Assembly: GCA_021298315.1 (NCBI GenBank)
Contig: JAJTFC010000020.1
Span: 1 to 64,000, forward strand
Direction: 5' to 3'
Source of the DNA: Planctomycetaceae bacterium
GTDB lineage: Bacteria; Planctomycetota; Planctomycetia; Pirellulales; Pirellulaceae
DNA length: 64,000 nt
The notes below the pieces were generated by a model that was given only the letters and a program-made list of their open reading frames with translations, was not told where the DNA came from and ran no database searches. Both the position numbers and the translations under genes were made by a program. Of the stretch, positions 12,525 to 56,025 are shown one piece after another; position 1 is the first letter of the stretch, and every line of letters starts with the position of its first letter.

Positions 12525-12551
12525 ATCAATCGCATCGAATTCGGCTCGATT

Positions 12552-14806: not shown

Positions 14807-14812
14807 CCGGAT

Positions 14813-14819
14813 CCTCCTT
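14813..14819 (-). promoter_or_regulatory. Ribosome binding site AAGGAGG for the protease gene
   Basis: On the minus strand AAGGAGG is followed by six bases and then ATG at 14806. This decides the protease start against the in-frame ATG at 14827, which has no such site. Confidence 0.7.
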
Positions 14820-14917
14820 GATCCCATCCTAGGCTCAACTAGCCCACCGCTTCGGGGTCCATGGCACCCGAAATCCCATGCTCGGAAGTGTCCAAATTGA
14901 GTGCACTCAGGGCAAGA

Positions 14918-15847: not shown

Positions 15848-15973
15848 TCGAAGCCGATCGGGAAATGGAGAAAACCTTGCTTCAAGCTCAGTCCCCCTAT
15901 GCATAGGAAGCCGAGCTTCGATTATTCTATCGACTCTTAGCAAGGTCCCAACCCCTTCCTCGAGTTCCAACCC

Positions 15974-16759: not shown

Positions 16760-16809
16760 TCTTCGCGTTGCCGGTGAACACGGATCGAGCCTTTTCCCTT
16801 AATGGACAC

Positions 16810-34239: not shown

Positions 34240-34244
34240 AATCT

Positions 34245-34883
34245 ATGTTCCGCTCCACCCTTTCGGTTTCGACGTCGGTTGGATCCTTGTTGTTGATCCT
34301 TTCGTCCTGGGGTATTGCAACTGCAGACATCATCAAGGAGTTCACTCAGCAATCGGGAGTTGCGGAGGATTTTGGGCTGCGAAGAGCGGTTTACCTCGGT
34401 CGCCTATTCAACGGCGTCGATGGAGGACCGTTCCGCCGGATGGACTCGATGTATGCGATCGTTACGCTAGCCCAAGCTACCAACGTGCAGTTATTCGCAG
34501 GTGACGGGAACTCGAATTTCGATTCCGCGTTCAGCCAGGGCAAGATGATCGATACGGGGATAAGAGTTAGCAATTCGAACCAAACAGACACTCAGGTGGT
34601 GTTTGTCCCGGGAAATCCCTCGAACACCCCTCCGTTTAAAATCGGCGTCCCGGCAGGGGTTGCGATCCACGACTCGCTTGCAGCCAACAACCGACTTGAT
34701 TTTTGGCTTGTTGGAATCACGAACTCTGGCTTCACGGTCCCTGCAAATGTCTCTGGGAATGTCGCGAACTTCTTTATCCAATTCGATCGCTCGACGGCGG
34801 TTCCAGAACCAGCATCGGTCTTGTTGGCCGGATCGGGTTTGGTTGCTCTACTGGCTAGAAGACGCCTTTGGCGATCGAAGTAG
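34245..34883 (+). CDS. PEP-CTERM sorted protein 2 (paralog of protein 1)
   Basis: From the ATG at 34245 the product is 212 residues; an upstream in-frame ATG at 34194 lies inside the previous gene and is less likely. A signal peptide (about 1-27) is followed by a domain with NNRLDFWLVG and FTVPANVSG elements that match PEP-CTERM protein 1. The C-terminus VPEPASVLLAGSGLVALLA plus RRRLWRSK is a textbook PEP-CTERM signal. Only five bases separate it from protein 1, so they are co-transcribed. It is exported and probably sorted by the exosortase at 53568. Confidence 0.85.
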   Translation: MFRSTLSVSTSVGSLLLILSSWGIATADIIKEFTQQSGVAEDFGLRRAVYLGRLFNGVDGGPFRRMDSMYAIVTLAQATNVQLFAGDGNSNFDSAFSQGKMIDTGIRVSNSNQTDTQVVFVPGNPSNTPPFKIGVPAGVAIHDSLAANNRLDFWLVGITNSGFTVPANVSGNVANFFIQFDRSTAVPEPASVLLAGSGLVALLARRRLWRSK

Positions 34884-40852: not shown

Positions 40853-40875
40853 CAGAGCCGTCTTAACGTTCTGTT
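40851..40875. terminator. Inverted repeat between convergent genes
   Basis: AACAGA (40851-40856) and TCTGTT (40870-40875) are complementary across a 13-base loop, at the end of copy 2 of gmd and the end of the exosortase partner gene. No T-run is seen; it is a weak candidate for a bidirectional terminator. Confidence 0.25.
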
Positions 40876-42299
40876 GGATCGATCGAACCCTCTACGACCC
40901 GCCATCGCTCCATACGCTCATGCAATTCCTGTTGATTCTTAGAAGCCTCCTGCATGGCTCCGATAAGGGGTTGGACAAGCTCTATGGTTGCCTGCTCGTA
41001 ACGGCAGGCTTGTTCAAGGTGCCAATCTCTTGATGCTTCGTCCCCTGAGAGTCCCTTGCAAAACGAAAGACTCAAATGGACCATCGGTAAGTCCAAGCCC
41101 TCGACGAGCCATTGCTGGAGCTGCTTTTGAAGTTCCAATAGCTCCGACTGAGGCCTCAGTAAGCTTCTAGCCATGATGTCTTGGACCCTTGGGCCTGCCC
41201 CACTGGTCCGAAGGAATTTCACCAAACAATAGGCAACTTCTCTAAGGTTTCTCGGTTCTTTCAAAGCGGCCTCGGCCCGTCGCTCCAGGGATGCGAGATA
41301 AGCATCGATCGAATCCTGATCCCGGTGGATCTTATACCCTTCCAAGTGGACCTGCTCTGCCCTGCCCCACTCGCCGAGCGCTTCATAAAGGTACGCAAGC
41401 TGCACGCGGTAGGCTCGATTCCATGGATCGGAACGCAGTCCGTCGGCTATGCGTTCAGCACCTGTTTTCAACACCGTCTGACGCTCTTGATCCTTTCCCA
41501 ATCGCTTCAACAATGAAGCAAAACCCAAGCTTTGAAAGACATCGGACTCAAAAACCTCGCGATACTTCGACTCTGCCTCGTCCAAGCGACCATCCCAAAA
41601 CGCCTTCATCGATTGCAACAAAACAATCTGTTCAGGTCGCACCCCGGAGGCCCTCTCCAGATGCCAATCCAACTCCTCGAGGAGCTCTCGGCGTTGGGAC
41701 TCCCCGAGGCTTGACTCCTCCAACTTTCCAACACATTGACTGGCTTTCCAATAATGCGCTATACCAAGTCCTGTGGAATCCCTTGGCGATAAACCTTCAA
41801 GAATCCGCTCGGCGGATCGTGCGTTTCCATTCTGAATTTCCACCAAAGAGTATAGGAACTTGCGGTCTGCGTTTGCAAACTCCATGTCTCCAATCCACCG
41901 CATCGCCGCCCGAACTCCTTTCGGTCCGTCTTGCTTGCTGTATGCATTTTGGACACGAGCCAGATATCGGTTTAGAATCCGCTCGCGATTGAACGCCACG
42001 AGCAAACAACTCGCAATCACGATCGATCCTAGCAACCAGAATGGGATGCTACAGAGAAATGCTCGCCGACGCTGCCCTCGGTAAAAGAACCCTGCAATCG
42101 GATAGCTAATTAGTTGTGCTAGAAGCCAGAAGAATTGGCCAAGTCTACGGTTCAACGATCTATAGAAACCAACGGGACGATCCGAATCTTCAAAGTTCCC
42201 ACGATCTAGGAAGCCTCCGAAAAAACGAAGCGTTATCTCCAATAGATCGGAGATCCATGCAATGATTCGAACGGGGAGATCCGTCAGAAATCTCAACAT
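40863..42299 (-). CDS. Membrane-anchored TPR-like protein, partner of the degenerate exosortase
   Basis: From the ATG at 42299 the product is 478 residues; the frame extends to 42491 but those codons overlap the exosortase-like gene. The N-terminal third has two or three hydrophobic segments (RIIAWISDLLEITLRFFGGF, FWLLAQLISYPIAGFFY, FWLLGSIVIASCLLVAF). It is followed by a long alpha-helical region with TPR-like spacing (SAERILEGLSPRDSTGLGIAHYWKA, SKYREVFESD, LAYLYEALGEWGRAEQ). It probably faces the periplasm. It starts 13 bases after the exosortase-like gene and is the last gene of the polysaccharide operon. Confidence 0.7.
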   Translation of the reverse strand: MLRFLTDLPVRIIAWISDLLEITLRFFGGFLDRGNFEDSDRPVGFYRSLNRRLGQFFWLLAQLISYPIAGFFYRGQRRRAFLCSIPFWLLGSIVIASCLLVAFNRERILNRYLARVQNAYSKQDGPKGVRAAMRWIGDMEFANADRKFLYSLVEIQNGNARSAERILEGLSPRDSTGLGIAHYWKASQCVGKLEESSLGESQRRELLEELDWHLERASGVRPEQIVLLQSMKAFWDGRLDEAESKYREVFESDVFQSLGFASLLKRLGKDQERQTVLKTGAERIADGLRSDPWNRAYRVQLAYLYEALGEWGRAEQVHLEGYKIHRDQDSIDAYLASLERRAEAALKEPRNLREVAYCLVKFLRTSGAGPRVQDIMARSLLRPQSELLELQKQLQQWLVEGLDLPMVHLSLSFCKGLSGDEASRDWHLEQACRYEQATIELVQPLIGAMQEASKNQQELHERMERWRVVEGSIDPTER

Positions 42300-42312
42300 A
42301 CAGCAAACTCCG

Positions 42313-43848
42313 TTATCGAATTGAATCGCCGATCGCTGCGTCGAAACCCATTTGCTTCTCGATCGCTTCAACCCATCGTGCATGCAACTCCTTTTGCTCC
42401 TCGTGCTGTTTCTCGGTAATCGGACGGACCGACTCGTGCACCAAGGAAACCTGTACGACCGGTCCGGGTAATGTCCTATCCCCGACGACACGAACCCCCT
42501 TGGTCACCACATAGGCTTCTTCAACTATCGATCGTTTCATCCCGAAGTGGAAACTGCCGTTGTCTTCCGATATTACACCATCGGTCTTCCAGCCATACCA
42601 TCGCCAAAGCCAATCTGGTTTTGGCAACGTAATCCAAATCCCATCGATACGAAGTTTCATGCTCCCCTCCCGGCTCTGCTCTGGGGTCAACTCCCACTCC
42701 CAATGATTCCAGCTTGGTGACTGTCGAAATACAGGGTTGAAACTTTCCGCTGATTTCGTTGCTGGTCCAAGCGTCCAACCCTCGACGCCCGACTCAAGCT
42801 TCAAAGACTCAACAGCCGAAATCGCTGCCGATTGTCGAAGATTCAACCCCTGCGCCCACTGGTTTTTGTAGATCGACCAACCGCCGAGAAAAGCAAGACC
42901 AACCAACATGGACCAAAGGGCAATCCAAGGAACTCTCGATTCAGGGAGATCGATGGCCTCGCGCAATTCATTTTTCCCTGGTTCTATAGAAATGTCCGAA
43001 TCCTTATCGCTAGATGGTCCAGAGAAAGCTGAGCAAAACTGATCACCGCTCCATGTGAGCAACAAGACGGTTGCAAAAAGGACTATAGACGAAGCTCCGC
43101 TTTGATAAAAAACTTTCGCCGATTGCCCATCTTGTATAATCGCGTCAACTGCGATCCAGGCCCCTTGGGCCACAATTGCCCAAAACAACAACACAACCAG
43201 TAAATAAAAGAATCGAAGAAAACGATACCCTTTGAAGAATCCATAGGCTATCACCAACAAGACCATCGGGTAGATAAGCCTAAGGCCAGAGCAGGACTCA
43301 TTCTGTAGAAAATCCGTACTGACCAACCCGAGCACGTTCCCCTTTGCAAAGTAGAACACCTTGTAAATATCCAGCAGACAGCCGGCAAAACTACTAGCCA
43401 GCCATTGTGCAAGCGAATGCATCCAAGGAGCAGTCTTCCATAACGACAGAGGTACCATACAAAGCAACAGCCCCATATAGAACAAGCGGTTCGTAGAGAA
43501 ACCCGCGAACAGGGCAATCAATGCGGCAACGCACAAGCCTGATCCACGAAAAACCCAAACCGGCTCATTGAAAAGAACTCCCCGAAGACACGCACCAACG
43601 GCAGCCGAAACGATCACCAAGAGAAATCGCACCCGCATCGACGACTCATCCGCATTCGCTCTTAAAAATGGAGTGCCGACTCCCGTCAAAACCATGAATG
43701 CAAAAACGAAAAAAAACAAAGCGATATCAATCGACAAACCCGCAAAAGCGATTTGCTTTAGTACCAACCCGATAGCGGGAATTTGCGTTGTTACTGCCGC
43801 GATTAGCAGTGCGATGGTAATCTTCTTATCCATTTGACCAATCGCCAT
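42313..43848 (-). CDS. Exosortase-family protein lacking the Arg/His catalytic residues
   Basis: This 511-residue protein has eight or so membrane helices, then a soluble C-terminal part of about 220 residues. The exosortase Cys motif is present (ESCSGLR, C186). In active members this Cys is followed by an Arg in an NxxR motif and a His in an HD(x)SG-like motif. Here the matching segments read VAQGAW (231 is Trp) and VFYQSGAS (248-251), and no His occurs from 186 to about 270. The C-terminal part (about 330-500) is not clearly EpsI-like. It is probably non-catalytic in sorting. It lies just downstream of the tyrosine kinase gene. Confidence 0.7.
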   Translation of the reverse strand: MAIGQMDKKITIALLIAAVTTQIPAIGLVLKQIAFAGLSIDIALFFFVFAFMVLTGVGTPFLRANADESSMRVRFLLVIVSAAVGACLRGVLFNEPVWVFRGSGLCVAALIALFAGFSTNRLFYMGLLLCMVPLSLWKTAPWMHSLAQWLASSFAGCLLDIYKVFYFAKGNVLGLVSTDFLQNESCSGLRLIYPMVLLVIAYGFFKGYRFLRFFYLLVVLLFWAIVAQGAWIAVDAIIQDGQSAKVFYQSGASSIVLFATVLLLTWSGDQFCSAFSGPSSDKDSDISIEPGKNELREAIDLPESRVPWIALWSMLVGLAFLGGWSIYKNQWAQGLNLRQSAAISAVESLKLESGVEGWTLGPATKSAESFNPVFRQSPSWNHWEWELTPEQSREGSMKLRIDGIWITLPKPDWLWRWYGWKTDGVISEDNGSFHFGMKRSIVEEAYVVTKGVRVVGDRTLPGPVVQVSLVHESVRPITEKQHEEQKELHARWVEAIEKQMGFDAAIGDSIR

Positions 43849-43963
43849 TTAACTTCATCCAATACGACGTTTCTAATGAAAGACGCGTCGATATCGTCGC
43901 GTCGCTTAACACAAGTCTATGGCCATCCTGTTTCACGAACTAGACTAAGTGACGGATGTAATT

Positions 43964-46450
43964 CTAAACCGATCGGTCGCTTGAAACACGATCTTCTTTA
44001 CGTACCTTGTCGGAATAATCTGAATATTTCTTGTCGTAATAGTTCTTGTAGGAGTACCCATGGTAATATGCACCTCGGTAATACGTTCCATATTCGTTGT
44101 AATATAGATTCTCGTCCATCCCATTGACGATAACACCGATCAGATTCCCATTGACCATGTTTAATCGACTCTTGGCCTTGTGTGCCGACAATACCACGCC
44201 CCGGCGAATTCGCAAGACCATAACGATACCATCAACGAGCCCGCAGATGGAGGTTGCGTCCGCAACAGGGATCACCGGTGGCGAATCGATCAAAACGAAG
44301 TCGAATCGACTTCTAAGCTCCCCGATAAACTCCAAAAAGGACTCCGAAGCGACGAGCTCCCCAGGGTTTTTTGGCCGCCCACCCGTGGTGACCAACCAGA
44401 GGTTTTTCTGAAAATCACAAGGCCTTAATGCCTCATCGAGGGTGCATTGCCCTTCCAAGTACTGCATCCCACCGGGCTCGAACTGGACGCCGAAGTTCTG
44501 CTGAACACGGGGACGCCGGTAATCCGCATCGACCAAGCAGACCCGTTTATTGGTCTGCGCTAACGATAGTGCTAAATTGGCAATCGTCGTCGATTTACCA
44601 TCTCCCGGAGATGGACTGGTGAACATGAAGACCTTACCACCGTTTTGCGCTGCGGTAAAAAGCAGAGATGTTCGAGCGGCTCGGAACGATTCGGACACCG
44701 ACGAATTCGGCTGGTGTGCAGCAACAAGCATCGGAGAGCCGGCAAACCCAGCAGGAACCTTGGATTTTTTAATCCTGGGGATTTTGCATAGCACAGGTGT
44801 ATTGAGATTTTCCTGAATGTCAATCGGTGTGCGATATGCAAGATCCGAGTGGTCAATAAGTACTGCCAATCCGCAGCCTAACAAACCACCTAGAGCGAGC
44901 CCACCGAGCAGGAACTTCCATAGCTTTGGAAAAACTTGGCTCGGGTACGAAGCTTCGTCGATGATCTTGACTCTTGTCGATGAGTAGGAGTTGGACATGG
45001 CACGCATGGCTGAAAGCCGTTCTAAGATCTGACCGACGGTATTGCGCCGCTCTTCGATCTGATCCCTCAACATGTTGACTTCCGTGATTTCCCCCGCGAT
45101 CACCTTGGACTTCTCCGTCAACTCTGCGATATCCTCCGCGATTCGATCCAAATTGTATTTTGAGCGCTCTCGTTGATTCGATAGCGATGCTGCATAGAGT
45201 TGGAGTATCTCGCTATCCCTCGTCCGGACCTCTTTGGATAATGCATTCGCGTACGACTGCAATAGTTCACTGTCGGCGTTTTGAGTACGTTTGGTTATCT
45301 CGGATCCTTTATTCTCAATATCTTGTTCGCTGGTCAAAAAGCCCCGCAGTGTTTCCAACTCCTGATTCAACCGGTTCCGCGTTGCGACCGCTGCTTGATA
45401 TTTCGCTTCTACAAATTCCACCTGAGGATGCTTTGCACCGTAGCGGGACATCGCCTCTGCTCGCTCGGAATCCATCGAAACGACCTCAGCATTTGCGGAT
45501 TCCATCCGCTGTTCGTAGCGAGTGAGCCTAAGCCTATCCTCCTCCGACATCCCGTTGAGGAAGTCCATTCCGCGGTCCTGTTTGTCCAAATTGAAGTACT
45601 TCCGCCCCTCGATGACCGCAAGTCTCAAAAGATCATCTCTCTGGGTTGCCGGATCCATTGCGGTTCGCAGTTGCTCGAGTTGCTGATCCGCGTCGCGAAA
45701 TTCCAGAAGAATCTCATCTCTCTCGAGCCGTAGCTTCTCGATCTCCGAAACATAAGGATTAACCCACCGCCCCTTGTCATTCTCCGCGGTCAAATTGAGC
45801 TCTTTGAGCAACTGGTAGTATCGATCCTGGTCCACCTTCTGATCATCGACGAGCGAGCGTTGCAGTCGTTCGATCAACTCGACAGACTCCTTGCCAGAAA
45901 TCTCCGAATCCTTTTCGATCGCCGAGATGTAGGAAGCCACGACTTGATTCAAAATGCCAGGCAAATCCTCTTTGACTTTACCCTCACAGATGATCTCCAA
46001 TGCATCCGAAGTCAGGTCCTTGCCTACAGGCGATACGGTCAACATTTCACGCAGATCTGCCATCGGCGAGTCGGCCCCACGGAACGAAACCAACTTGTCC
46101 AGCTGCCCGTTGCGGATCGCCTCGGCAAGCACCATTTGCCCAGAAAGCAAAACCCTATGTTTTTCCAGAGAAACAGTCTGAGGTACAACTTCCCCATTGA
46201 TCACGCTTGGAGGAGCCTGCACGAAAAGCATCAGTTTCATCACCGACGCATACACCGGTGTGACCTGAGTGTAGAGCAAGCACGCGACCGCAGCACCTAG
46301 GACCGAAAGAAGCACAATCACCGACTTACGACGCCATAACGCTCCGTAAAAGTCAATCGTTGGCATCGGAGGCTCGTCAGATGCATTGGACCCGCGACCA
46401 GCCGAGCCAGAATCCTCGAACCCGTACTGCAAATTAGGCTTATCCATCAT
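43964..46450 (-). CDS. Wzz/Wzc-type chain-length regulator with tyrosine autokinase
   Basis: This 828-residue bitopic protein has a Wzz domain (membrane helix about 43-62), a periplasmic coiled-coil region (about 190-490) and a second helix (about 511-532). The cytoplasmic BY-kinase has Walker A SPSPGDGKSTT (612-622), A' CLVDADYRRPR (638-648) and Walker B FDFVLIDSPPV. The C-terminus holds 13 Tyr in residues 783-812, the autophosphorylation cluster. In the coiled coil, the unit DSE(L/I)LQ(S/L)YAxxLS occurs twice (393-406 and 412-425), an internal repeat. It controls export and length of the polysaccharide. It stands 198 bases downstream of the glycosyltransferase gene. Confidence 0.93.
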   Translation of the reverse strand: MMDKPNLQYGFEDSGSAGRGSNASDEPPMPTIDFYGALWRRKSVIVLLSVLGAAVACLLYTQVTPVYASVMKLMLFVQAPPSVINGEVVPQTVSLEKHRVLLSGQMVLAEAIRNGQLDKLVSFRGADSPMADLREMLTVSPVGKDLTSDALEIICEGKVKEDLPGILNQVVASYISAIEKDSEISGKESVELIERLQRSLVDDQKVDQDRYYQLLKELNLTAENDKGRWVNPYVSEIEKLRLERDEILLEFRDADQQLEQLRTAMDPATQRDDLLRLAVIEGRKYFNLDKQDRGMDFLNGMSEEDRLRLTRYEQRMESANAEVVSMDSERAEAMSRYGAKHPQVEFVEAKYQAAVATRNRLNQELETLRGFLTSEQDIENKGSEITKRTQNADSELLQSYANALSKEVRTRDSEILQLYAASLSNQRERSKYNLDRIAEDIAELTEKSKVIAGEITEVNMLRDQIEERRNTVGQILERLSAMRAMSNSYSSTRVKIIDEASYPSQVFPKLWKFLLGGLALGGLLGCGLAVLIDHSDLAYRTPIDIQENLNTPVLCKIPRIKKSKVPAGFAGSPMLVAAHQPNSSVSESFRAARTSLLFTAAQNGGKVFMFTSPSPGDGKSTTIANLALSLAQTNKRVCLVDADYRRPRVQQNFGVQFEPGGMQYLEGQCTLDEALRPCDFQKNLWLVTTGGRPKNPGELVASESFLEFIGELRSRFDFVLIDSPPVIPVADATSICGLVDGIVMVLRIRRGVVLSAHKAKSRLNMVNGNLIGVIVNGMDENLYYNEYGTYYRGAYYHGYSYKNYYDKKYSDYSDKVRKEDRVSSDRSV

Positions 46451-46648
46451 CGACCGCCTTTGACCCTCAGGGAGCGTTTCGACTCCCGATATTTTCCACA
46501 GAGCTCCTAAAGCTAGCTTTCTGTCATCCGCGGTTTCATCTTAGGAAATCCAACGCCGAATGTCTACTCGAATCGGCGATTCGTCCAAGCTCCCTGCAAT
46601 GCTTCCGGTTATCGAGCTGCACAAAAGCCCTCATTTTCTCAAAGCCGC
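46451..46648. other. Gap inside the polysaccharide cluster with a small hairpin
   Basis: A 198-base gap before the kinase start is the largest one in the minus-strand cluster and may hold a second promoter. A perfect CGAATC-GGC-GATTCG hairpin lies at 46569-46583. No coding sequence is supported. Confidence 0.35.
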
Positions 46649-47395
46649 TCAAAAGTACTGGTAAATTTTCCTCAGTGGCTTGAGCAATCGCAGAGCCCAA
46701 GGAGGCCGCCACCCATTGACCGACCAAGCCTTTGCATCTTCTCGGTTAGCCTGCAATCGATTCGAAACCGATGCGTTGCTCAAGCCCCCGACCCGCATAC
46801 AGACAAGGGTCTGAGGAATGTACCGCATTGGGACTCCGTTGACGAGCATCATTCGAAGCAGCAACTCGTAGTCGGCGGCAAAATGGAAGTCATCGCGAAA
46901 CAGTCCGTGCCGAAGATAGCATTCCCTTCGGAAGTAAACCGTCGGGTGAGGCGGCATCCAACCCCAACGATACTTCGACACCCCGTAATCGCCGGACTTC
47001 CACCGACGCACCGTTCGGGTCGGTTCATGGCAATCGACATAGACCAAGTCCCCGTAGATCCCCATTGTCGAATGGTCCTCCGAAAACTCTTGAGCTATGT
47101 TTGCGACGACGTCGCGGTGAGCAAAAAAATCATCGGCATGCAGCAGCCCGACGACATCCCCGCTGGCCATTCGAATCCCTTTGTTCAACGCATCGTAGAT
47201 GCCTTGGTCCTTCTCCCGAACCTGTCTGTCGATCCGATCGGAATACTTCGAAATAATACTCTCTGTCCCGTCATTGGACATGCCATCGACAACGATGTAT
47301 TCGATATCCGGGTAGGTTTGCTCTAGAACCGAATCTAGGGTGTGAGAAATGGTCTCGACGCGATTATAGACCGCAGTGATGATCGATACTTTCAT
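46649..47395 (-). CDS. Family 2 glycosyltransferase (WcaA-like)
   Basis: From the ATG at 47395 the product is 248 residues; the start overlaps the preceding stop as ATGA. GT-A fold landmarks are KVSIITAVYNR at the N-terminus, QTYPDIEYIVVDGMSNDGT, DQGIYDALNKGI and the LLHADDF motif with the DxD-type metal site. The C-terminal part carries the FHFAADYELLLRM element of this subgroup. It transfers a hexose from a nucleotide sugar onto the growing repeat unit on the cytoplasmic side. Its exact donor is not known. Confidence 0.85.
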   Translation of the reverse strand: MKVSIITAVYNRVETISHTLDSVLEQTYPDIEYIVVDGMSNDGTESIISKYSDRIDRQVREKDQGIYDALNKGIRMASGDVVGLLHADDFFAHRDVVANIAQEFSEDHSTMGIYGDLVYVDCHEPTRTVRRWKSGDYGVSKYRWGWMPPHPTVYFRRECYLRHGLFRDDFHFAADYELLLRMMLVNGVPMRYIPQTLVCMRVGGLSNASVSNRLQANREDAKAWSVNGWRPPWALRLLKPLRKIYQYF

Positions 47396-48366
47396 AGACT
47401 TTCGACCCATGCGATCATCTGTGTTAGCCCCTGTTTCGCGCTTACACGCGGCGACCATCCTAGCAAGTGATGGGCCTTGGTTATGTCTGCGACGAAGAAA
47501 TCTTGGTCGCTCTGCCGACGTGGCAATCGTGTGTAGCTCAATCCATCGGATCGGCCGAGTAGATGCGAGAGTTGCTCAAAAAGCTCGATCAAACTCAAAC
47601 TGTTACTCATCCCACCTCCGATGTTGAATACCTCACCTGCACAGAGGCTTCTTTTCTCATAGGCAGTTTGGTAAAGGGATATCAGATCCTCACTGTGCAG
47701 GACATCCCGCACCTGTTTTCCCGTCCCTGAGATCGTAAATGGTACTACCTCAGCCCCTTTTCTTTTGCATGAGTCTTGCTCAATTGCCTGCTTAGCAAAC
47801 CAGCCAATCCAGCCTTGATCGGCCGTGGCATACTGCCGCCCTCCATAGATCGAAGAATGCCGAAACACGACCGTATCGAGCCCGAAATTCCTGTACCAAT
47901 CGCGCACGTACTGGTCTGCACTCCCCTTGGAACATCCATAAGGTGACGCGAAATCTAAAGGCATCGTCTCGTCGATCCCGTCGGGATACTCAGGGAGCAA
48001 ATACCTTGTCTCATTCTGGCTGTATTGCAGATGTCGCAAGTCCCCATATACCTTATTCGTCGAACTGAAGGCCACCAATGCCTTTGGCGACCATTTCCGA
48101 GTGCATTCGAGAACATGAACCGTACCTAAAGCGTTGGTTCTAAAATCGTAGAGCGGATCGGCTAACGACGTCGTCATCGCTACTTGACCCGCTAAGTGGC
48201 ACACGTAATCGAAGGGCCCGCGTTTCTGAAACACATCCGTCATCCGATCGATCGAGGCTACATCCATCTCGTGAAATTCAAGCTCCCGATCATGCTTGCT
48301 CGAATCCTGAAGCCACCGGAGATTTTCCCTAGATCCTGATTTCTGCATCTTATCGATGACCGTCAC
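47392..48366 (-). CDS. rfbE: CDP-paratose 2-epimerase (RfbE-like), 5' truncated
   Basis: This 324-residue reading frame closely fits CDP-paratose 2-epimerase: HLAGQVAMTTSLADPLYDF, STNKVYGDL, the Y-x3-K site in ASPYGCSKG, and FRHSSIYGGRQYATADQGW. It starts at the second beta strand (GTG 48366, MTVIDKMQ), so the N-terminal 25-30 residues with the Rossmann GxxGxxG NAD motif are absent. Codons just upstream still read DGAR, matching the family's strand, up to an in-frame TAA at 48391-48393. Only 53 bases separate it from rfbH. The product probably cannot bind NAD normally. Confidence 0.75.
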   Translation of the reverse strand: MTVIDKMQKSGSRENLRWLQDSSKHDRELEFHEMDVASIDRMTDVFQKRGPFDYVCHLAGQVAMTTSLADPLYDFRTNALGTVHVLECTRKWSPKALVAFSSTNKVYGDLRHLQYSQNETRYLLPEYPDGIDETMPLDFASPYGCSKGSADQYVRDWYRNFGLDTVVFRHSSIYGGRQYATADQGWIGWFAKQAIEQDSCKRKGAEVVPFTISGTGKQVRDVLHSEDLISLYQTAYEKRSLCAGEVFNIGGGMSNSLSLIELFEQLSHLLGRSDGLSYTRLPRRQSDQDFFVADITKAHHLLGWSPRVSAKQGLTQMIAWVESL

Positions 48367-48419
48367 TCTTGCGCCATCCTGCCGCCCGTGTTACTCGTAC
48401 TCTACTCGACTAAAAAAAC

Positions 48420-49901
48420 TTATTGGCCACGACAAAATGCTACGATCGTCGCGGTCACATATTCGATCATTTCCTCGGTTAGGCCAGGATAAGTCCCCAC
48501 AAAAAGAGCTTCCTTCATAATCCGATCGGCCCCCGATAGATCGCTGACGACTCGAATCGCTTGAGGATTCTCTTTACGCAAATTAGCAAACGCAGGCTGC
48601 CTGAGTAAGTTCCCCCCAAAAAGCATCCTGTTGCCGATCAACTTGGAATCCAAATGCTTCGCAAGATCGGTTCGCGTAAAACCCGCCGTGGACTTTACTC
48701 CAATCTTGAACCCAAACCAGGAGCATTCCGTTCGACAACCCGAAGAGTCCCAGGAAAAACCATTTTCCGCATCCCAATTCGAGGCATGGGTTGGTAACGA
48801 GAACTCGAGCACATCCTCCAAGCCTGCTAAACCACATCGAAGCAAATGCCAGTTCCGCTTACGTGCCTCGATAAACCGCTCCAGCTTTGCGAGCTGCTTG
48901 ATGCCAATCGCTGCTTGGATATCCAAGGGCTTGAGGTTGTACCCTAAGTGACTATAGATGTACTTGTGGTCATAACCATCGGGTAGCTCTCCTAGCTGCC
49001 AGCCAAAACGCTTGTTGCAAGTATTATCTTTACCCGACGGACACCAGCAATCCCTACCCCAATCCCGATAACTCTCTACGATTACCTTAAGCCCCGATTG
49101 CTTGACGATGTTGACCGCCCCACCTTCCCCCAAAGTCAGGTGATGCGGTGGATAAAAACTTTGTGTCGAAAGATCCCCCCAAGCTCCTGTGAATTTGCAA
49201 AGACTGCCGTCTGCTTGTCCAGACTCTTTCGGATACATCTCTTGCCAATGCGAATCGGCTGGCATGGTATACTTGCAGCCAAGGGCATCGCAGTTGTCTT
49301 CAACAAGCCAAAGCTGATGGTCGCGACAGAACTCTAAGGTCGTCCGAAGATCGAATGGATTGCCCAACGCATGGGCCATCATCACCGCTTTGGTCTTGCC
49401 CTTAGAATAAGCATCCTGCAGTTGCTCACATTTGGCGTTCCCAGTGATGGGATCGGCATCGATAAAAACAGCAGTCGCTCCGCACTGAAGAATCGGTGCG
49501 ACCGTCGTGGGAAAACCAGCCGCGACGGTGATCACCTCGTCTCCCGGAAGCAATCGCCGTTCCTTAGGTATTTTCGGGCTAGTCAAAGCAGAGATGGCGA
49601 GCAGATTCGCACTCGACCCCGAATTGACCAAAAGCGAATTCCTTACCCCTAGAAAATCGGCCAACGAACGCTCGAAACGATCCCCTTCAGGACCGAGAGT
49701 CAACCAAAAATCCAATACGCTATCTACGGCGGCCTTGACCTCGTCCTCATTGAAGACACGACCAGCATAGGGTACTGGGGTTTGACCAGGGACGAACTCC
49801 GAACGACCCAGAGCGTCTCCCGGAAGGTTGGAGCGGTGGTTCATCCGCGAATATTCGCCGACGAGCTTCTGGATCTCTTCTCGCAGTTCTTGGGCATTCA
49901 T
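48420..49901 (-). CDS. rfbH: CDP-6-deoxy-L-threo-D-glycero-4-hexulose 3-dehydrase (E1)
   Basis: From the ATG at 49901 the product is 493 residues. It is the PMP- and [2Fe-2S]-dependent dehydrase that removes the C3 hydroxyl in dideoxysugar synthesis. The PLP-fold motif SFYPPHHLTLGEGGAV has His in place of the usual aminotransferase Lys, as required for E1. The Fe-S cysteines DCWC...C follow the C-x-C-x7-C spacing. NSGSSANLLAISAL and AAGFPTTVAPILQCG are conserved. Reading frame upstream to 50042 overlaps rfbG and lacks homology. It is downstream of rfbF and rfbG in the order known from dideoxyhexose loci. Confidence 0.93.
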   Translation of the reverse strand: MNAQELREEIQKLVGEYSRMNHRSNLPGDALGRSEFVPGQTPVPYAGRVFNEDEVKAAVDSVLDFWLTLGPEGDRFERSLADFLGVRNSLLVNSGSSANLLAISALTSPKIPKERRLLPGDEVITVAAGFPTTVAPILQCGATAVFIDADPITGNAKCEQLQDAYSKGKTKAVMMAHALGNPFDLRTTLEFCRDHQLWLVEDNCDALGCKYTMPADSHWQEMYPKESGQADGSLCKFTGAWGDLSTQSFYPPHHLTLGEGGAVNIVKQSGLKVIVESYRDWGRDCWCPSGKDNTCNKRFGWQLGELPDGYDHKYIYSHLGYNLKPLDIQAAIGIKQLAKLERFIEARKRNWHLLRCGLAGLEDVLEFSLPTHASNWDAENGFSWDSSGCRTECSWFGFKIGVKSTAGFTRTDLAKHLDSKLIGNRMLFGGNLLRQPAFANLRKENPQAIRVVSDLSGADRIMKEALFVGTYPGLTEEMIEYVTATIVAFCRGQ

Positions 49902-50004
49902 CGTCTTAGAACCACTCCCTATTTTGCTCAAAGCCCATTTCGAAAACTCCAATAAGTTGACTTGTGGCGATCGCATAATCGATCGCGATTCCGTCAGCAA
50001 AAGC

Positions 50005-51114
50005 CTATACTTCGGTCCACGCCTGATTGAGCCTAGTGGCATCCTCTACGTAACGCTCGATACATCCTTGCGTAGCCACCTTTGGATCAAATCCGTCCTG
50101 TACCGATTGATACCAACTTGCCGTCTGTTGGACGCACGATTCGAATGACCATGTTGGCTTCCAACGCAACATATGATAAGCCTTATCAATCGAGAGATTC
50201 AGTCGCGAAGCTTCGTGGGGCTCCGTGGGATTCGAAGCGTCGACCCAGGTTCCGCCGGTATGCTTGAGGAAGCTATCGACCAATTGAGAAACACTGCGAT
50301 TGCTCTCAAGCTGCGGACCAAAATTGAACGCCGAGCAAAATAGCTTTGGATCGTATCCGCAAATATCTGGGTTCCCAAGATGGGCGGCAAGCCACAGATA
50401 ACCAGAAATCGGCTCTAAGACATGTTGCCAAGGCCTCGTCGCTTGGCGATTTCGAACCGATACGGGCTCCCCGGACTTCACAGATCGAACGATGTCCGGG
50501 ACGATTCTCTCGGGTGCCCAATCGCCTCCACCAATCACATTTCCTGCGCGTGCAGACGCAACCTTCACCAAGGAATCGGCACCGGAGAAAAACGAAGATC
50601 GATAAGCTGCTGTGACCAACTCCGCGCAACCCTTCGATGCACTGTAAGGATCATAACCGCCCATGGGATCCTCTTCCCGGTAGGCGTGCAGCCACTCTTT
50701 GTTCTCGTAGCATTTGTCCGTTGTTACGACCACGACGGAACATCGTTTGGAATATCCGACAAGAGCATCCAGCAAATTGACCGTCCCAAGAACGTTCGTT
50801 TCAAAAGTTTCCCTAGGCTTGCGATACGATGCTCTGACCAAGGGTTGTGCTGCAAGGTGGAAAATGTAGTCGGGCTGTGAACTCAAGATCGCCTGTGCTA
50901 AAGCTCCCGCATCGCGGATGTCTCCTCGGCCATCGCATTTGACAGTGTCAACAAGACGCAGATGATCGAAAAGCACCTCGTGGGATTCCGGCTCAAGCGA
51001 ATACCCAAAAACCTCCGCCCCGAGGGAAACCAACCAGGCTGTCAACCAACTCCCTTTGAAGCCGTTATGACCTGTGATGAAGACGTTTTTGCCTCGAAAT
51101 AAATCATGAAACAT
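50005..51114 (-). CDS. rfbG: CDP-glucose 4,6-dehydratase
   Basis: From the ATG at 51114 the product is 369 residues, a short-chain dehydratase. It has the NAD motif ITGHNGFKGSWL, HLAAQPLVRASYR, the TDKCYEN motif with the catalytic Thr, and the YSASKGCAEL Y-x3-K site. It converts CDP-glucose to CDP-4-keto-6-deoxyglucose. It begins one base after the rfbF stop and precedes rfbH by 103 bases (or less if rfbH starts upstream). The longer frame to 51258 runs through rfbF and is rejected. Confidence 0.93.
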   Translation of the reverse strand: MFHDLFRGKNVFITGHNGFKGSWLTAWLVSLGAEVFGYSLEPESHEVLFDHLRLVDTVKCDGRGDIRDAGALAQAILSSQPDYIFHLAAQPLVRASYRKPRETFETNVLGTVNLLDALVGYSKRCSVVVVTTDKCYENKEWLHAYREEDPMGGYDPYSASKGCAELVTAAYRSSFFSGADSLVKVASARAGNVIGGGDWAPERIVPDIVRSVKSGEPVSVRNRQATRPWQHVLEPISGYLWLAAHLGNPDICGYDPKLFCSAFNFGPQLESNRSVSQLVDSFLKHTGGTWVDASNPTEPHEASRLNLSIDKAYHMLRWKPTWSFESCVQQTASWYQSVQDGFDPKVATQGCIERYVEDATRLNQAWTEV

Positions 51115-51115
51115 G

Positions 51116-51901
51116 TTACTTATCCCAAACTTTCCAAGGCGCTTTGCCGTTTTCCCAAAGCTGCTGCAACTCGTTTCGATCCCTAAGTGTATCCATGGGA
51201 AGCCAAAATCCTCGATGTCGATACGCCGAGAGCATCCCTGATGCAGCCAGGTTCGCAAGCGGCTCGCGCTCCCAAACCGTCCGATCCCCCTGCTCGATGT
51301 AGTCGATCGCCGATGGCTCTAGAACAAAGAAACCACCATTGACCCAAGCTCCATCGCCTTCAGGCTTTTCCTGAAATACCGAGATTCGATTCGGATCATT
51401 TCTGGTAAAAGACAACGCTCCGTAGCGTCCAGGAGGCTGTACGGCCGTCAGCGTGGCCGCCGCCCCAGTTCGCCTATGAAAGGCAATCAATTCCTCGATG
51501 TTGATATCGGCAACTCCATCACCATAGGTCATGCAGAAGGTTTCCTGCCCAAGAAACCGCTCCACTCGCTTAAGCCGTCCACCGGTCATCGTCGCTTCGC
51601 CTGTATCGACGACCGTCACACGCCAAGGCTCAGCCTTCTTGTGAAGGACCTCGACGGTGTTGTTGCCCATATCAAAAGTCACATCCGACATGTGGAGGAA
51701 ATAGTTTGAAAAGTACTCCTTGATCATGTATCCCTTGTAGCCCGCACAAATGATGAACTCATGAATTCCAAAAGATGAATAGATCTTCATGATGTGCCAC
51801 AAAATCGGCATGCCTCCGATCTCGATCATCGGCTTGGGCCTCAGATGCGTCTCTTCCGAAATCCTTGTCCCCATCCCCCCTGCGAGTATCACTGCTTTCA
51901 T
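51116..51901 (-). CDS. rfbF: Glucose-1-phosphate cytidylyltransferase
   Basis: This 261-residue nucleotidyltransferase begins with the signature [24 protein letters not shown], followed by [13 protein letters not shown] and [13 protein letters not shown]. The [15 protein letters not shown] element fits CDP-glucose pyrophosphorylase. It makes CDP-glucose from CTP and glucose-1-phosphate, the first step to the CDP-dideoxyhexoses. It lies 48 bases downstream of the first exosortase partner gene and one base before rfbG. Confidence 0.95.
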
Positions 51902-51949
51902 CTTTTTCTTTCTCGAATCATAACTTGGGTCCTCTTTGCATGGAAGCTT

Positions 51950-53581
51950 CTACTTCGAAGGCTCCATGCTCGATCGCTTCTTGGCTTCCTGAAGCAGCCC
52001 ATCGATGAGCACTCTGTTGGGCGAGTTCGGACCAATGCTATCAAGATAGCCAATTGCAAGATCCCACTTCTGAAATCGCATCGCTAAAACCGCCGATCCA
52101 ATCTTTAGATCTAAGCTGTTGGGAAACGCTCGATTGAACGATTCGCAGATCGTCCCGAGCCCCTCCCATGGAACGCTTCTGGTACCGCTCGCCTGGATCC
52201 AATACGCCAATAGACCGACGATTCCTTCAAGATCCCTCTCGGAAAATCCAGGTAGCGACTCGTCGTGCCCCCGGCCTCGTTCCCCTTGGCTATTCATGAT
52301 CTGCTTGGTCCAGTCCAATACCACAAGAAAGGTATCTTCGGTACTTAGACCATCGACAACGAGAAGCTCAACCAAAGAATCAGGCCTCTGGGCTTGGTCC
52401 CCATCATAGTACTGGTCGAGCAAATCACGAACCTCGGGATGGTCCGATCCGATCCTGAGCATGGACCGCAAAACGGATCCAGAGAGAAGCTTACCATGAA
52501 CTCCCTCGGGGAAAGCAGACTTCGAGACCAGAGCACGAAGTTCGCTTGCGACAACAATATGCCTCAGCAACTGTTGATCTTCTGGGGGGACAGCTTCGAT
52601 GCGAGTAAGAACCGTTGCACTGGCTTCCTCGATTCCCGAGACAACCATCAAACAACGAAAGAAAGCATCGATCGCTTGAATCTTCATTTCGCTCGACCAT
52701 TCATTGCTCATGCGTTGCATGACCTGGGAGTGCTCCACAATCGCTTCCCTAGCAACTTGAATCGCACGCTGCGGATAGACACTCGCAAGTCCCTCGACCA
52801 ACCAAGCCTTGGTGATCAAATCACCCGGCGAGCTTGCATCGTTTGGAATACTCTTGCTCAAACTCGCTTCCAACCGTACGATCCCCGACTCCAAACGAGT
52901 TTTACGCTCCGCAACATCTAAAATTGGGGATGCTTGATGGGCATATTGAATGTCCAACCCCCCCACGATTTCCTCACTATCACACGGATCGATGCTGTTC
53001 GAAAGTTGGCCGACGCGATCGATCATCGAGGGCACTCGCATTCGATCGTCGCGGCAGTTCTGCCTAAGCTTGAGCAGGTAGTCACGGAGGATCCAAACCT
53101 TTGCCCAAGTCGCATCAGGTCCTTCGAGTCGCGTTGCGCTACGTATCGATTCCAGGGCGCGGTTTTTCGATCCGTTCACAAGCTCTTTCAATCGCTGGCC
53201 ATCTTCGCTGGAATCCGGTGGAATATTCGCGAGAATCTGCTTGCCAGTCCGATCGATCTCCAAGGCCACTTCTGCGTGCATTCGCCGATACCGAGCTTCC
53301 GCTGGCGAATGGACCATCAATCGCTCTGAGGCTAGCGTCGCTTTCCGCATCCTTACATACCACTGGATCGTACGACTAGATGGATTAGCAAATGGTACAG
53401 GTTCAAATTCAAAGTCCTGGGCGTCGACCACCATTGCTTCATAGCGGCTCGCGATATTCGGCTCGATAAAAAAAACGCTCAGAGCCATCGAGCTAAGAGT
53501 CACTCCCGCCAGAATCAAGGACGGAACTCCCCATCGCCAATACGTTTCTTTCGTTTCAGGAAGATTGTTACCTGGATCCAT
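51950..53581 (-). CDS. Membrane-anchored helical-repeat protein, partner of the canonical exosortase
   Basis: From the ATG at 53581 (AGGAG upstream; overlap of 14 bases with the exosortase stop) the product is 543 residues. A single membrane helix (about 17-37) is followed by a long alpha-helical region of degenerate repeats (IQWYVRMRKATLASERLM, AEARYRRMHAEVALEID, LITKAWLVEGLASVYPQRAI). It ends with a TPR-like tail (FNRAFPNSLDLKIGSAVLAMRFQKWDLAIGYLDSI). It most likely projects into the periplasm. I do not recognise a named family. The same layout appears in the other exosortase partner at 40863. Confidence 0.65.
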   Translation of the reverse strand: MDPGNNLPETKETYWRWGVPSLILAGVTLSSMALSVFFIEPNIASRYEAMVVDAQDFEFEPVPFANPSSRTIQWYVRMRKATLASERLMVHSPAEARYRRMHAEVALEIDRTGKQILANIPPDSSEDGQRLKELVNGSKNRALESIRSATRLEGPDATWAKVWILRDYLLKLRQNCRDDRMRVPSMIDRVGQLSNSIDPCDSEEIVGGLDIQYAHQASPILDVAERKTRLESGIVRLEASLSKSIPNDASSPGDLITKAWLVEGLASVYPQRAIQVAREAIVEHSQVMQRMSNEWSSEMKIQAIDAFFRCLMVVSGIEEASATVLTRIEAVPPEDQQLLRHIVVASELRALVSKSAFPEGVHGKLLSGSVLRSMLRIGSDHPEVRDLLDQYYDGDQAQRPDSLVELLVVDGLSTEDTFLVVLDWTKQIMNSQGERGRGHDESLPGFSERDLEGIVGLLAYWIQASGTRSVPWEGLGTICESFNRAFPNSLDLKIGSAVLAMRFQKWDLAIGYLDSIGPNSPNRVLIDGLLQEAKKRSSMEPSK

Positions 53582-55193
53582 CAGCGCGCTGGCTCCTGAG
53601 AAATCCAAGTGCTCTGGCAGATTTCGAGACGATCTGTGCTCGACTCTCAAGGAAAACTTTGCGAAGGAAGCCCAGTTGTTCCTCTGTTGGCAATGCGCTC
53701 GTGTAGGCGATTTGCTGAAACTGTAAGGTCAAGGGCTCATGCGCTCGATCACCAGGCCGTTCGCGGTTTAAAATGGTGTTTGTCCAACGTCCACCTTGCG
53801 TTCGAAACTCCACCGAGCCCTCGTACTTATACGGGTTTGCTTGCTGGTCGAAAAGGGAAAAATGAAGGATTGCAAGATCCCCCAGATCGTTTCTCAAAAC
53901 CGTCTCGAAGAATGAGACGCCGTCGATTTCAATCAACTCCGAACTCTCCCTGTTCCATCCTGAATTCATGTAGCACTCCCAAAGGGGGTGCCAACCCCGA
54001 AATGGAAAATCAAGGCTTAGGGTCAAACGTCCTAATTCGCTCGATAGCTCCCAGACCCGCGAATGCTGACCCAACATGTCGTTGCGATCCCGGTAAGCGG
54101 TGTGAAAACCTACGACTTGAGAACTGCTCGGTGCTATCAAGTCGGAGGCTCCCGGAAACACACCTGCCTCTTCTTGGGTAATGCTCGGTAAATCAGAACT
54201 CGCGTGGAACTCCATGACGGCCCGCACGCTCTCTGGAAAAAAAACAAACAAACACAATGGAAAAACAGCCCAACTCAATCCTAATCGCCCCGAGGAAGTC
54301 GTATCAGATTCCACAGTAACTCTTCTCTTCATGATTGTTTCAAAACCTTCCTCACTGGATGACCATCTCAAATGCAGATAGTTAAGAAACTGAACCGAAC
54401 TCCAGTGGACCCAAGCCGTAAATACAAAAACCCCAAGCCCCAAAAAAGTATGTATCGTTCCGTGCGATAAATCGATCCCAAACCACTCTAGTCCAATGAC
54501 GATCAGATAAATGCGAAGCAGATTTCCCAAGATCGCCCAAATCGGAACCGTTAAGATCGTGACCAAACTGACCCACCAATGGGCCCGCCCCAGGAGCAGT
54601 AGCACACCGGCAACTGCCATCAGAGCATACTGACTATCGACTCCACTACAGGCTTCCTCAACAAACAAAGGTTTGCTCGGAACCTCAATAATGTTGCCCC
54701 GCCGAACGTGCACGATATTCGTTAAATCCATCAAGCGACTGCATGCGAAGGATGAAAAGGATTGCAATCCGCTGATAAGTCGCTTGTCCCATCCCAAGGG
54801 TGCAGGCAATGTGACGACGAGCAATCCGCATATCCCGACGACTCGCAACAGACTCAGACCCGGTCTTGCGAGGAACGCCCATGTCCCTACCAGCATGATC
54901 GCCACGACGTGTGCCAACCAAGGACTCCCAAGATACAATGCCAGCATCGCTGAAAGCATAGATAGGATCCACGCTCCAATCACCCATGCACCAGGACGAA
55001 AATAGCCCTTGGACTCGTCGGATTGACCAAGAAAGTAGACGCAAGCGGCAATAGCCAAAGGAAAAAATTGCAAATGGGGCTTTTGCATCAAGATACGGCA
55101 TTGCATGTAAAGAAGTGGTGATAGTGCGATCAACGGCAATATCAGTGCAATCCAGTTCCATCGACTGAGGCGTTCTGGGTTATCGTTCGACAC
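53568..55193 (-). CDS. Exosortase with EpsI-like C-terminal domain
   Basis: This 541-residue polytopic protein, from a GTG start overlapping the preceding gene by 14 bases, holds the full exosortase triad. C182 lies in EEACSGVDSQY, R227 in LGNLLRIYLI, and H248 in GTIHTFLG. The C-terminal half after about 330 is soluble and looks EpsI-like (VGFHTAYRDRNDML, GWHPLWECYMNSGW, YKYEGSVEFRTQGG). It is probably the enzyme that cuts PEP-CTERM proteins at the sorting signal and ties protein export to polysaccharide production. Planctomycete exosortase type U is a likely match, but subtype is not proved. Confidence 0.85.
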   Translation of the reverse strand: MSNDNPERLSRWNWIALILPLIALSPLLYMQCRILMQKPHLQFFPLAIAACVYFLGQSDESKGYFRPGAWVIGAWILSMLSAMLALYLGSPWLAHVVAIMLVGTWAFLARPGLSLLRVVGICGLLVVTLPAPLGWDKRLISGLQSFSSFACSRLMDLTNIVHVRRGNIIEVPSKPLFVEEACSGVDSQYALMAVAGVLLLLGRAHWWVSLVTILTVPIWAILGNLLRIYLIVIGLEWFGIDLSHGTIHTFLGLGVFVFTAWVHWSSVQFLNYLHLRWSSSEEGFETIMKRRVTVESDTTSSGRLGLSWAVFPLCLFVFFPESVRAVMEFHASSDLPSITQEEAGVFPGASDLIAPSSSQVVGFHTAYRDRNDMLGQHSRVWELSSELGRLTLSLDFPFRGWHPLWECYMNSGWNRESSELIEIDGVSFFETVLRNDLGDLAILHFSLFDQQANPYKYEGSVEFRTQGGRWTNTILNRERPGDRAHEPLTLQFQQIAYTSALPTEEQLGFLRKVFLESRAQIVSKSARALGFLRSQRADGSR

Positions 55194-56025
55194 CCTGACC
55201 TCCTTGGAGTTCCTGCTGGCGAATCTCGGAAATTTTCAAGGCGATAAGATACTCATAGATGGATAGTAATCGGCAATAGTGATAGCCAGGAACCCCATCG
55301 AGAAAACCAGCTTTGAAAAAATACATGTAGACGAATCGAAGAAATCCCCTGCAGGGCAATCGAAACGATAACTCTTTTAAAGCCAAACGACGCAACGCTG
55401 GATCCCTCAACTGAAAGAGATCCGTCCAAGGAATCTTGCGCTGCCTTAAACTTCGAAGTGATTCAATCGCCTCATTCGTCGAGTACTTGTTGTGCTTGTC
55501 GACCCAAGCAGCAAGTCCTTTTCGGAAACTGTAATGGTGAAAGTGCCCTTTGAGTTCTCCGATCGCCCCCTGGACCACAGGAGTGCAATTGACGATTCGC
55601 TCCCATCGCACCATTTCAGGTCGATAAAGCCTTAACACCCATACTGGATAGATCCCGCAGTGCTTGATCCAACGATCCATGAAGTAATTTTTATATCGCA
55701 AGCGATAAGCGACATTCGTGTTCGTTGTGTCCAAGGCGATCGATTTCATTTCGCCGACCAAGTCCGATGGGAGGACTTCGTCGGCGTCCGAGCAATAGAC
55801 CCAAGGATACTTGTATTCGATCTGCGTACTTGCCCAATTGAGTTGCGCCGACTCATCGGCAAACCGACGCTCGATCACGCGGCAACCAGCCTGCTCTGCA
55901 ATTTGAACCGTTTGGTCCTTACTGCCTGAATCCAAAACTACAATATCATCGCACCATGAGAGAGACTCAAGGCAATGCGGCAGATTGATCTGCTCGTTGA
56001 GGGTCCGAATCAAAACCGAGATCAT
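55180..56025 (-). CDS. Family 2 glycosyltransferase (WaaE/KdtX-like)
   Basis: This 281-residue GT-A enzyme has the N-terminal MISVLIRTLNEQINLPHCLE, IVVLDSGSKDQTVQIAE, and the SDADEVLP metal-site motif. The latter part (GHFHHYSFRKG, KYSTNEAI, GFLRFVYMYFFKAGFLDG) matches the subgroup that adds sugars to lipid-linked or core saccharides. Its start overlaps the acetyltransferase stop by four bases and its end overlaps the exosortase start. It works on the cytoplasmic membrane face. Confidence 0.85.
   Translation of the reverse strand: MISVLIRTLNEQINLPHCLESLSWCDDIVVLDSGSKDQTVQIAEQAGCRVIERRFADESAQLNWASTQIEYKYPWVYCSDADEVLPSDLVGEMKSIALDTTNTNVAYRLRYKNYFMDRWIKHCGIYPVWVLRLYRPEMVRWERIVNCTPVVQGAIGELKGHFHHYSFRKGLAAWVDKHNKYSTNEAIESLRSLRQRKIPWTDLFQLRDPALRRLALKELSFRLPCRGFLRFVYMYFFKAGFLDGVPGYHYCRLLSIYEYLIALKISEIRQQELQGGQGVER

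Follow-up and report, generated by a model that had tools for sequence, protein, structure and literature searches.

Exosortases are membrane enzymes with a presumed role in cutting and sorting surface proteins, and to our knowledge their substrate recognition and processing are poorly understood. Accessory proteins linked to exosortases are already a known kind. XrtA systems have been described to include PrsT, a tetratricopeptide repeat (TPR) lipoprotein (PMC1569441), and Aquincola requires prsT to form flocs (PMC9850573). Of 13 cases, 4 have prsK/prsR in a tandem arrangement with prsT, and 3 have them close by or next to epsH (PMC1569441). In Methylobacillus 12S, epsI is the gene directly after epsH (PMC1569441), and a CrtB-associated gene is often found directly downstream of crtB in cyanobacteria (PMC12188702); both are of unassigned function in these sources. 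Here we analysed a stretch of 64,000 nucleotides (the window) from a Planctomycetaceae bacterium (GCA_021298315.1, contig JAJTFC010000020.1, positions 1 to 64,000), in which an exosortase-like gene is twice followed by a gene for a membrane-anchored helical-repeat protein, hereafter the partner. The original prediction, made from these letters alone, took the helical protein for a specific and undescribed exosortase partner. We found that the pair is general: the exosortase U-type enzyme (XrtU) usually stands beside, and is rarely fused to, a TPR partner in planctomycetes and some Verrucomicrobia.

All four genes of the two pairs lie on the minus strand within a polysaccharide locus (Table 1). 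Open reading frame (ORF) calls confirmed the coordinates, strand, and order of both pairs, with a 14-base overlap in the first pair and a 13-base gap in the second. The exosortase of the first pair had been called canonical, and this holds: it matched XrtU_C (NF033780, NCBIfam) with 95.8 bits, above the cut-off of 40, and EpsH (PF09721, Pfam) with 90.2 bits, and alignments gave a complete catalytic set (Cys182, Arg227, and His248). Its closest named relative is from a Pirellula metagenome-assembled genome (MAG; 88% identity). Partner 1, encoded just after it, has a single N-terminal membrane helix at about residues 21–39 followed by an all-alpha body, as judged from hydrophobicity and an AlphaFold2 model (predicted local distance difference test [pLDDT], 85.9; predicted template-modelling score [pTM], 0.80). 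Partner 2 has its membrane helix at about residues 85–103 and then a helical body. Thus the predicted membrane segment was present in both. For the predicted TPR-like character the profile evidence was mixed: partner 1 had no Pfam match, so that its label rests on its family and fold, and partner 2 had weak TPR matches under the Pfam cut-offs.

To collect relatives, six rounds of hidden Markov model (HMM) iteration were run from each window partner against 888 ORFs, which came from the window, three other contigs of its own genome, and set 1. This set comprised 100 stretches from the taxonomic family of the window's genome, mostly around XrtU-like matches and a few around partner matches (L073, L080, and L082). 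Each run recovered 92 of the 888 ORFs, 90 of them common to both runs, and in each run 80 were directly downstream of an exosortase gene. When alignments sharing no rows were compared with hhalign, the main group was matched at 99.4% by the partner 1 group (437 columns) and at 100% by the partner 2 group (E-value, 2.7e-48; 391 columns). The two window groups matched each other at only 54.6%, confined to the membrane helix and the stretch that follows it. As a control, a giant TPR protein encoded on another contig of the same genome (C110) reached about 1% with either window group. On these profile comparisons, both window partners are assigned to one family with a membrane helix and an all-helical, TPR-related body. 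The best-conserved stretch of the main group, C-terminal and near NNLA and TRGQI, is absent from both in the alignment; they are therefore divergent, atypical members. Across the family, a clear membrane helix was found in the first part of 129 of 131 partners and a further hydrophobic stretch in 4 of 131. TPR_19 was matched by 31 of 36 members at an E-value of 1e-3. Among the best 25 of 33 NCBIfam and the best 25 of 35 Pfam families, the matches were mostly to TPR families, none of them above its curated cut-off in the window partners. The predicted fold is a TPR superhelix behind a membrane helix.

The order of the two genes was counted in set 1 and in set 2, which comprised 78 loci from named genomes, 15 of them on contigs shared with set 1. 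ORFs came from a simple longest-ORF script, and neighbours shorter than 110 amino acids were skipped. In set 1, a member of the partner family followed the exosortase gene in 82 of 106 same-strand cases (81 of 106 at an E-value of 1e-10, one probable false match being dropped). The family was found upstream in 1 of 90 cases and accounted for 9 of 163 other ORFs of at least 400 amino acids. These counts indicate that the pairing exceeds chance. Set 2 gave 56 of 72 downstream, 3 of 58 upstream, and 8 of 217 other ORFs, and after removal of the 15 loci on shared contigs, 45 of 57 downstream and 2 of 46 upstream. Verrucomicrobia alone gave 6 of 11 downstream. The most frequent offset was a 4-base overlap (24 cases in set 1 and 17 in set 2), an offset also shown by the pair of R. 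europaea 6C (L219), a strain with a single XrtU match; the 14-base overlap of the first window pair was also found in L070, L071, L072, and L170. In 15 single-contig genomes, whose coordinates were compared by eye, 22 of 27 strong partner matches (at least 150 bits) stood directly after an exosortase gene; of the other five, one (G105, L251) followed a 350-amino-acid membrane protein, and four had no exosortase next door. Two members of set 1 (L080_5 and L082_2) had no exosortase in their stretch, and the XrtU matches of those genomes sit on other contigs. Overall, the two-gene order is conserved over many genera and in two phyla; neither unrelated partners nor freely varying neighbours, the outcome named beforehand as contrary to the original prediction, were found. 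As a separate observation, a weakly partner-like membrane TPR gene (E-value, 1.4e-8) lies directly upstream, not downstream, of an exosortase gene in a Spartobacteria MAG (L215:7962-11626).

We then compared the presence of the two proteins across genomes. In 199 genomes of the window's taxonomic family, where the XrtU list came from a single query at an E-value of 1e-10 and the partner was scored at no more than 6 or 7 candidate positions in each genome, both were present in 108, XrtU only in 4, the partner only in 10, and neither in 77. By genus, the tally was 33, 1, 1, and 33, respectively. Fisher tests were run on these tables, of which the genus counts are the fairer because relatedness inflates the p-values. 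Among 246 genomes across the phylum, XrtU_C was found in 4, and the partner, at an E-value of 1e-25 and with the same limit on scored positions, in the same 4, including the window's own; in the other three, the coordinates place a partner no more than about 200 bases downstream of 4 of 5 XrtU_C matches. In one genome (G285), a single XrtU and a single partner lie about 127 kb apart. A natural split of the pair was also observed in G055, a single contig with one XrtU and two partner-family matches (446 and 157 bits), none of them adjacent (C1:5693826, C1:6839324, and C1:992878).

The two proteins also diverged together. For 80 pairs in 55 genomes, the tree distances of exosortase and partner correlated with r = 0.685. 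When paralogues were shuffled within genomes, none of 1000 runs reached this value (mean r, 0.508; maximum, 0.640), and in the paralogue-bearing genomes alone, r was 0.661 against a shuffle maximum of 0.588. Nearest neighbours in the two trees agreed for 57 of 80 pairs. In addition, natural fusions were found. L240 is a complete exosortase–partner fusion of 1037 amino acids, with 273 bits for the exosortase and 232 bits with the partner profile; L220 is one of the same kind truncated at a contig end (exosortase, 290 bits; partner start, 36 bits). In an AlphaFold2 model of the L240 fusion (mean pLDDT, 89.6), the exosortase domain was predicted with confidence, together with a membrane helix and a TPR superhelix. 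The best 50 Foldseek matches of this model were to generic TPR solenoids and included LbcA, which serves CtpA as its TPR adaptor. Two further exosortase–TPR fusions, of another exosortase subclass, occur in single-contig genomes (L248:4350-7901, 1183 amino acids; L249:4654-8172, 1172 amino acids). Their TPR part scored 60–69 bits with the partner profiles, and L248 is nearer to PrsT (102 bits); they were not counted as fusions to the partner family.

Candidate substrates were found as well. The window encodes a PEP-CTERM protein (Table 1), and its genome has 21 PEP-CTERM matches above the cut-off. PEP-CTERM genes stand just before XrtU in G011 and G006. Five single-contig genomes without an EpsH match above 170 bits have PEP-CTERM matches (18 in G055, 3 in G103, 12 in G105, 11 in G130, and 8 in G174), which leaves the exosortase clade of XrtU and its partner alone at hand there; G019, without an exosortase match, has 0. 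We call XrtA-like an EpsH match above 170 bits in a frame of 305–458 amino acids, or the C110 gene with 184.6 bits to EpsH, a label not taken from an XrtA model. By eye, none of the eleven XrtA-like EpsH matches (>170 bits) in the single-contig genomes had a partner match of at least 150 bits beside it.

Conserved pairing, homology of the two window partners, co-occurrence, co-divergence, fusion, and a helical-repeat fold were thus obtained by computation, and we regard the link between XrtU and the partner as well supported; in this respect the specific partnership claimed in the original prediction is upheld. We consider it probable, at roughly 0.6, that XrtU and the partner are two subunits of one sorting machine, in which the partner presents PEP-CTERM proteins and/or activates XrtU. 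The partner would be anchored in the inner membrane by its single helix, with its helical-repeat superhelix on the periplasmic side, next to the active site of the exosortase. It may bind PEP-CTERM precursors so that XrtU is offered their C-terminal sorting signal, and/or it may turn XrtU on, as TPR adaptors do for the periplasmic proteases CtpA and Prc. Physical contact and substrate binding are what we infer from the pairing, and so is the periplasmic side, which is suggested by the even number of helices of the EpsH fold together with the extra helix before the C-terminal part.

Several observations weigh against the two-subunit reading. In set 1, the gene downstream of the exosortase was a different one in 24 of 106 cases, and in set 2 it was so in 16 of 72; 15 of 121 and 16 of 88 exosortases, respectively, had no same-strand downstream gene within the stretch. 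For set 1, the profile had been trained on the same data to which it was applied, and of the 82 cases there, one (L007_5, a chain-length-like gene after the C110 EpsH gene; E-value, 3.6e-5) is probably a false match. The giant TPR control matched the main group at 97.1%, so that part of the main-group signal is generic to TPR proteins. Stand-alone family members exist, three of them in the window's own genome (C48, C164, and C110), and 10 of the 199 genomes have a partner and no XrtU match. Charge counts over the 25 residues on each side of the partner helix were split, 51 of 131 against 56 of 131. The Foldseek matches were generic, with template-modelling scores (TM-scores) of at most 0.44 among the best 50. 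For the partner 1 model, these matches were to generic TPR proteins only, and LbcA was not among its best 50. A predicted complex, one of the checks proposed at the outset, was approached through the L240 fusion, whose model leaves the domain arrangement uncertain (pTM, 0.59). Finally, co-inheritance is no proof of contact.

The main rival explanation also ties the partner to XrtU and has it act after cleavage, handing the protein to polysaccharide or outer-membrane machinery as a scaffold rather than a subunit. This agrees with the position of both window pairs within a polysaccharide locus, with the presence of TPR proteins in systems that export exopolysaccharide (the weak NCBIfam matches listed include BcsC and PgaA), and with the need for prsT of XrtA systems in floc formation (PMC9850573). 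The fusion to the exosortase and the tight gene pairing are a better fit to a subunit at the active site and are not decisive; we hold a post-cleavage scaffold to be a serious possibility, if a doubtful one.

A second explanation, that the partner is the planctomycete form of the already named PrsT, is unlikely. PrsT is also an exosortase-linked TPR protein, its model (TIGR02917) matched 26 of 36 family members at an E-value of at most 1e-3 (best, 3.7e-33), and the main group resembles the PrsT-like giant protein of C110 at the 97.1% given above. However, the scores seen were 31, 50, and 57 bits for three single partners and 75 bits for the L240 fusion, far below the cut-off of 312.2, and neither window partner matched TIGR02917 at E-values up to 1. 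The window groups had about 1% with the giant protein, which itself reached 122 bits with the PrsT model and stands two genes after an XrtA-like gene, apart from the XrtU pair. A lipobox-like motif was found in the first 40 residues of 0 of 131 partners by a simple pattern applied to uncurated ORF starts. On these scores and the missing lipobox, we dropped the PrsT identity.

We give still less weight to the explanation that the gene order is an inherited accident of polysaccharide operons with no specific functional link. The pairs do lie in a large polysaccharide locus, and some relatives of the partner stand alone. Yet the upstream neighbours belonged to the family in only 1 of 90 cases; swapping paralogues within genomes lowered the tree agreement in 1000 of 1000 shuffles; the two proteins co-occur by genus and across the phylum even where they lie apart (G055 and G285); and one complete and one cut fusion gene exist. 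Co-occurrence and fusion largely refute an accident.

The remaining alternative concerns the second pair, which could be a decaying, functionless pseudogene pair. Its exosortase scored just above the EpsH cut-off and had no XrtU_C match at E-values up to 1. The original prediction had described this copy as triad-less; alignment places Trp in the Arg column and Ser in the His column, so that the triad of an active exosortase is incomplete, but Cys is retained (NESCSGL). Against two relatives, this exosortase had ratios of nonsynonymous to synonymous substitution rates (dN/dS) of 0.26 and 0.21, and partner 2 had 0.14 and 0.12; XrtU had 0.16 and 0.13, and partner 1 had 0.28 and 0.24 (dS exceeded 1 in the second comparison). 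These values indicate that the degenerate exosortase is under somewhat relaxed selection, its ratios being higher than those of XrtU. Pairs related to it are present, by coordinates, on contig C83 of the same genome and in six more genomes (G177, G189, G123, G170, G010, and G162), and the relatives in L071, L073, and C83 have kept Cys and Arg and lost His. Among 209 exosortase-like sequences, 174 had Cys, Arg, and His, 26 lacked at least one, and 9 were incomplete at these positions, which gives a degenerate share of 26 of 200; the 26 rows represent 23 loci (repeats, L095_6/L187_5, L094_8/L178_8, and L077_10/L173_16), and a few alignments there may be off. His was absent in 24 of the 26. Of the 21 degenerate exosortases that have a downstream gene on their strand, 18 are followed by a partner. 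Degenerate exosortases that have a partner of their own therefore recur, and a pseudogene pair, for which the lost residues and the raised dN/dS speak, is highly improbable. The second exosortase of the window is probably kept by selection as a non-catalytic docking or regulatory version. A recent tandem duplication of one pair is unsupported, since in the hhalign comparisons both partners are nearer to the wider family than they are to one another; the module predicted as duplicated is one in the sense that both partners belong to one family, need not have arisen by recent local duplication, and is present in the window in atypical copies.

Two very degenerate exosortase-like genes were also observed with a partner-family gene directly after them, both on the minus strand: one at L243:4345-7664, with 33.6 bits to TIGR02602, and the 350-amino-acid membrane protein of G105 mentioned above (L251:4566-7249), with 22.7 bits to the XrtU profile and no NCBIfam family match. 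In some genomes, degenerate exosortase–TPR pairs lie close to active ones. We tentatively suggest, with less confidence than for the two-subunit reading, that XrtU is a two-subunit complex whose TPR subunit reads substrates and that the degenerate pairs are pseudo-enzyme modules widening or gating the choice of surface proteins, a composition of which the literature searched gave no description. The partner would offer a concrete second exosortase component to purify, delete, and solve, with the fusion as a single-chain target for structure determination. The repeated degenerate pairs suggest pseudo-enzymes within the system. In planctomycetes, the partner system bears on the assembly of the surface protein coat and polysaccharide matrix.

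Both pairs are preceded by polysaccharide genes (Table 1): a family 2 glycosyltransferase gene that overlaps the start of XrtU, and a Wzc-like gene directly upstream of the degenerate exosortase. Elsewhere in the window's genome, a second, diverged version of both exosortase–partner pairs lies on C83:49391-62628 and C123:17-844; its XrtU is seemingly split across the two contig ends, with a TGA within the C83 piece. The three stand-alone partner relatives of this genome, with no exosortase nearby, are at L255:5200-6738 (C48), L256:5682-7271 (C164), and L257:3656-5371 (C110). Those on C48 and C110 adjoin similar 196-amino-acid genes, whose sequence we take to be reminiscent of formaldehyde-activating enzyme. 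Also on C110 (L007, C110:8501-28500), the XrtA-like EpsH gene (8975-10081) is followed by a gene for 757 amino acids and then by that for the giant TPR protein of 1529 amino acids (12490-17079). TPR-matching frames of 1488–1678 amino acids occur near EpsH matches above 170 bits in eight single-contig relatives; seven of these have the frame at about 7–9 kb, and G011 has it at about 29 kb.

Table 1 Features of the exosortase–partner locus and a candidate substrate gene in the window.
Feature	Position	Strand	Basis
PEP-CTERM protein, candidate exosortase substrate	34194..34883	+	PF07589 (27.2 bits; cut-off, 20.7)
Partner 2, 478 amino acids from ATG	40863..42299	-	ORF, hydrophobicity, hhalign, dN/dS
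Degenerate exosortase, 511 amino acids	42313..43848	-	PF09721 (28.1 bits; cut-off, 25.7), alignment, dN/dS
Wzc-like tyrosine autokinase / chain-length protein	43964..46450	-	TIGR01007 (138.8 bits; cut-off, 108.05)
Partner 1, 543 amino acids from ATG, divergent member of the exosortase-linked TPR family	51950..53581	-	ORF, hydrophobicity, iterated HMM, hhalign, AlphaFold2
XrtU-type exosortase, 541 amino acids, GTG start	53568..55193	-	NF033780, PF09721, catalytic positions in alignments
Overlap of XrtU end and partner 1 start, 14 bases	53568..53581	-	ORF coordinates
XrtU C-terminal domain	53619-54122	-	NF033780
EpsH domain of XrtU	54399-55127	-	PF09721
Family 2 glycosyltransferase	55180..56025	-	PF00535 (45 bits; cut-off, 23.3)

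No description of the partner, or of XrtU by name, was found among the papers listed for the exosortase literature searched, which covered few subscription papers. The partner is apparently undescribed, as had been predicted, although PrsT is a precedent of its kind (PMC1569441). The Exosortase U model (NF033780), to judge by its title, covers the C-terminal domain of the enzyme and not the partner gene. PrsT, like the partner, is a TPR protein tied genetically to exosortase genomes and exopolysaccharide genes; it is a lipoprotein whose gene is not tightly paired with that of the enzyme (PMC1569441), unlike the signal-anchored partner. EpsI (TIGR02914) and the cyanoexosortase B-associated protein (TIGR04533) share with the partner a gene position directly after the exosortase gene, and neither model matched either window partner at E-values up to 1. 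They differ in that XrtU has its own C-terminal domain, to which the TPR partner is additional. The closest parallel in possible mode of action, drawn as an analogy and with no claim of homology, is with LbcA–CtpA of Pseudomonas aeruginosa and NlpI–Prc of E. coli, in which a TPR protein activates a periplasmic protease and may deliver its substrates (PMC8764530). LbcA and NlpI are lipoproteins that work with soluble proteases in degradation, whereas the partner would work with a membrane enzyme in sorting.

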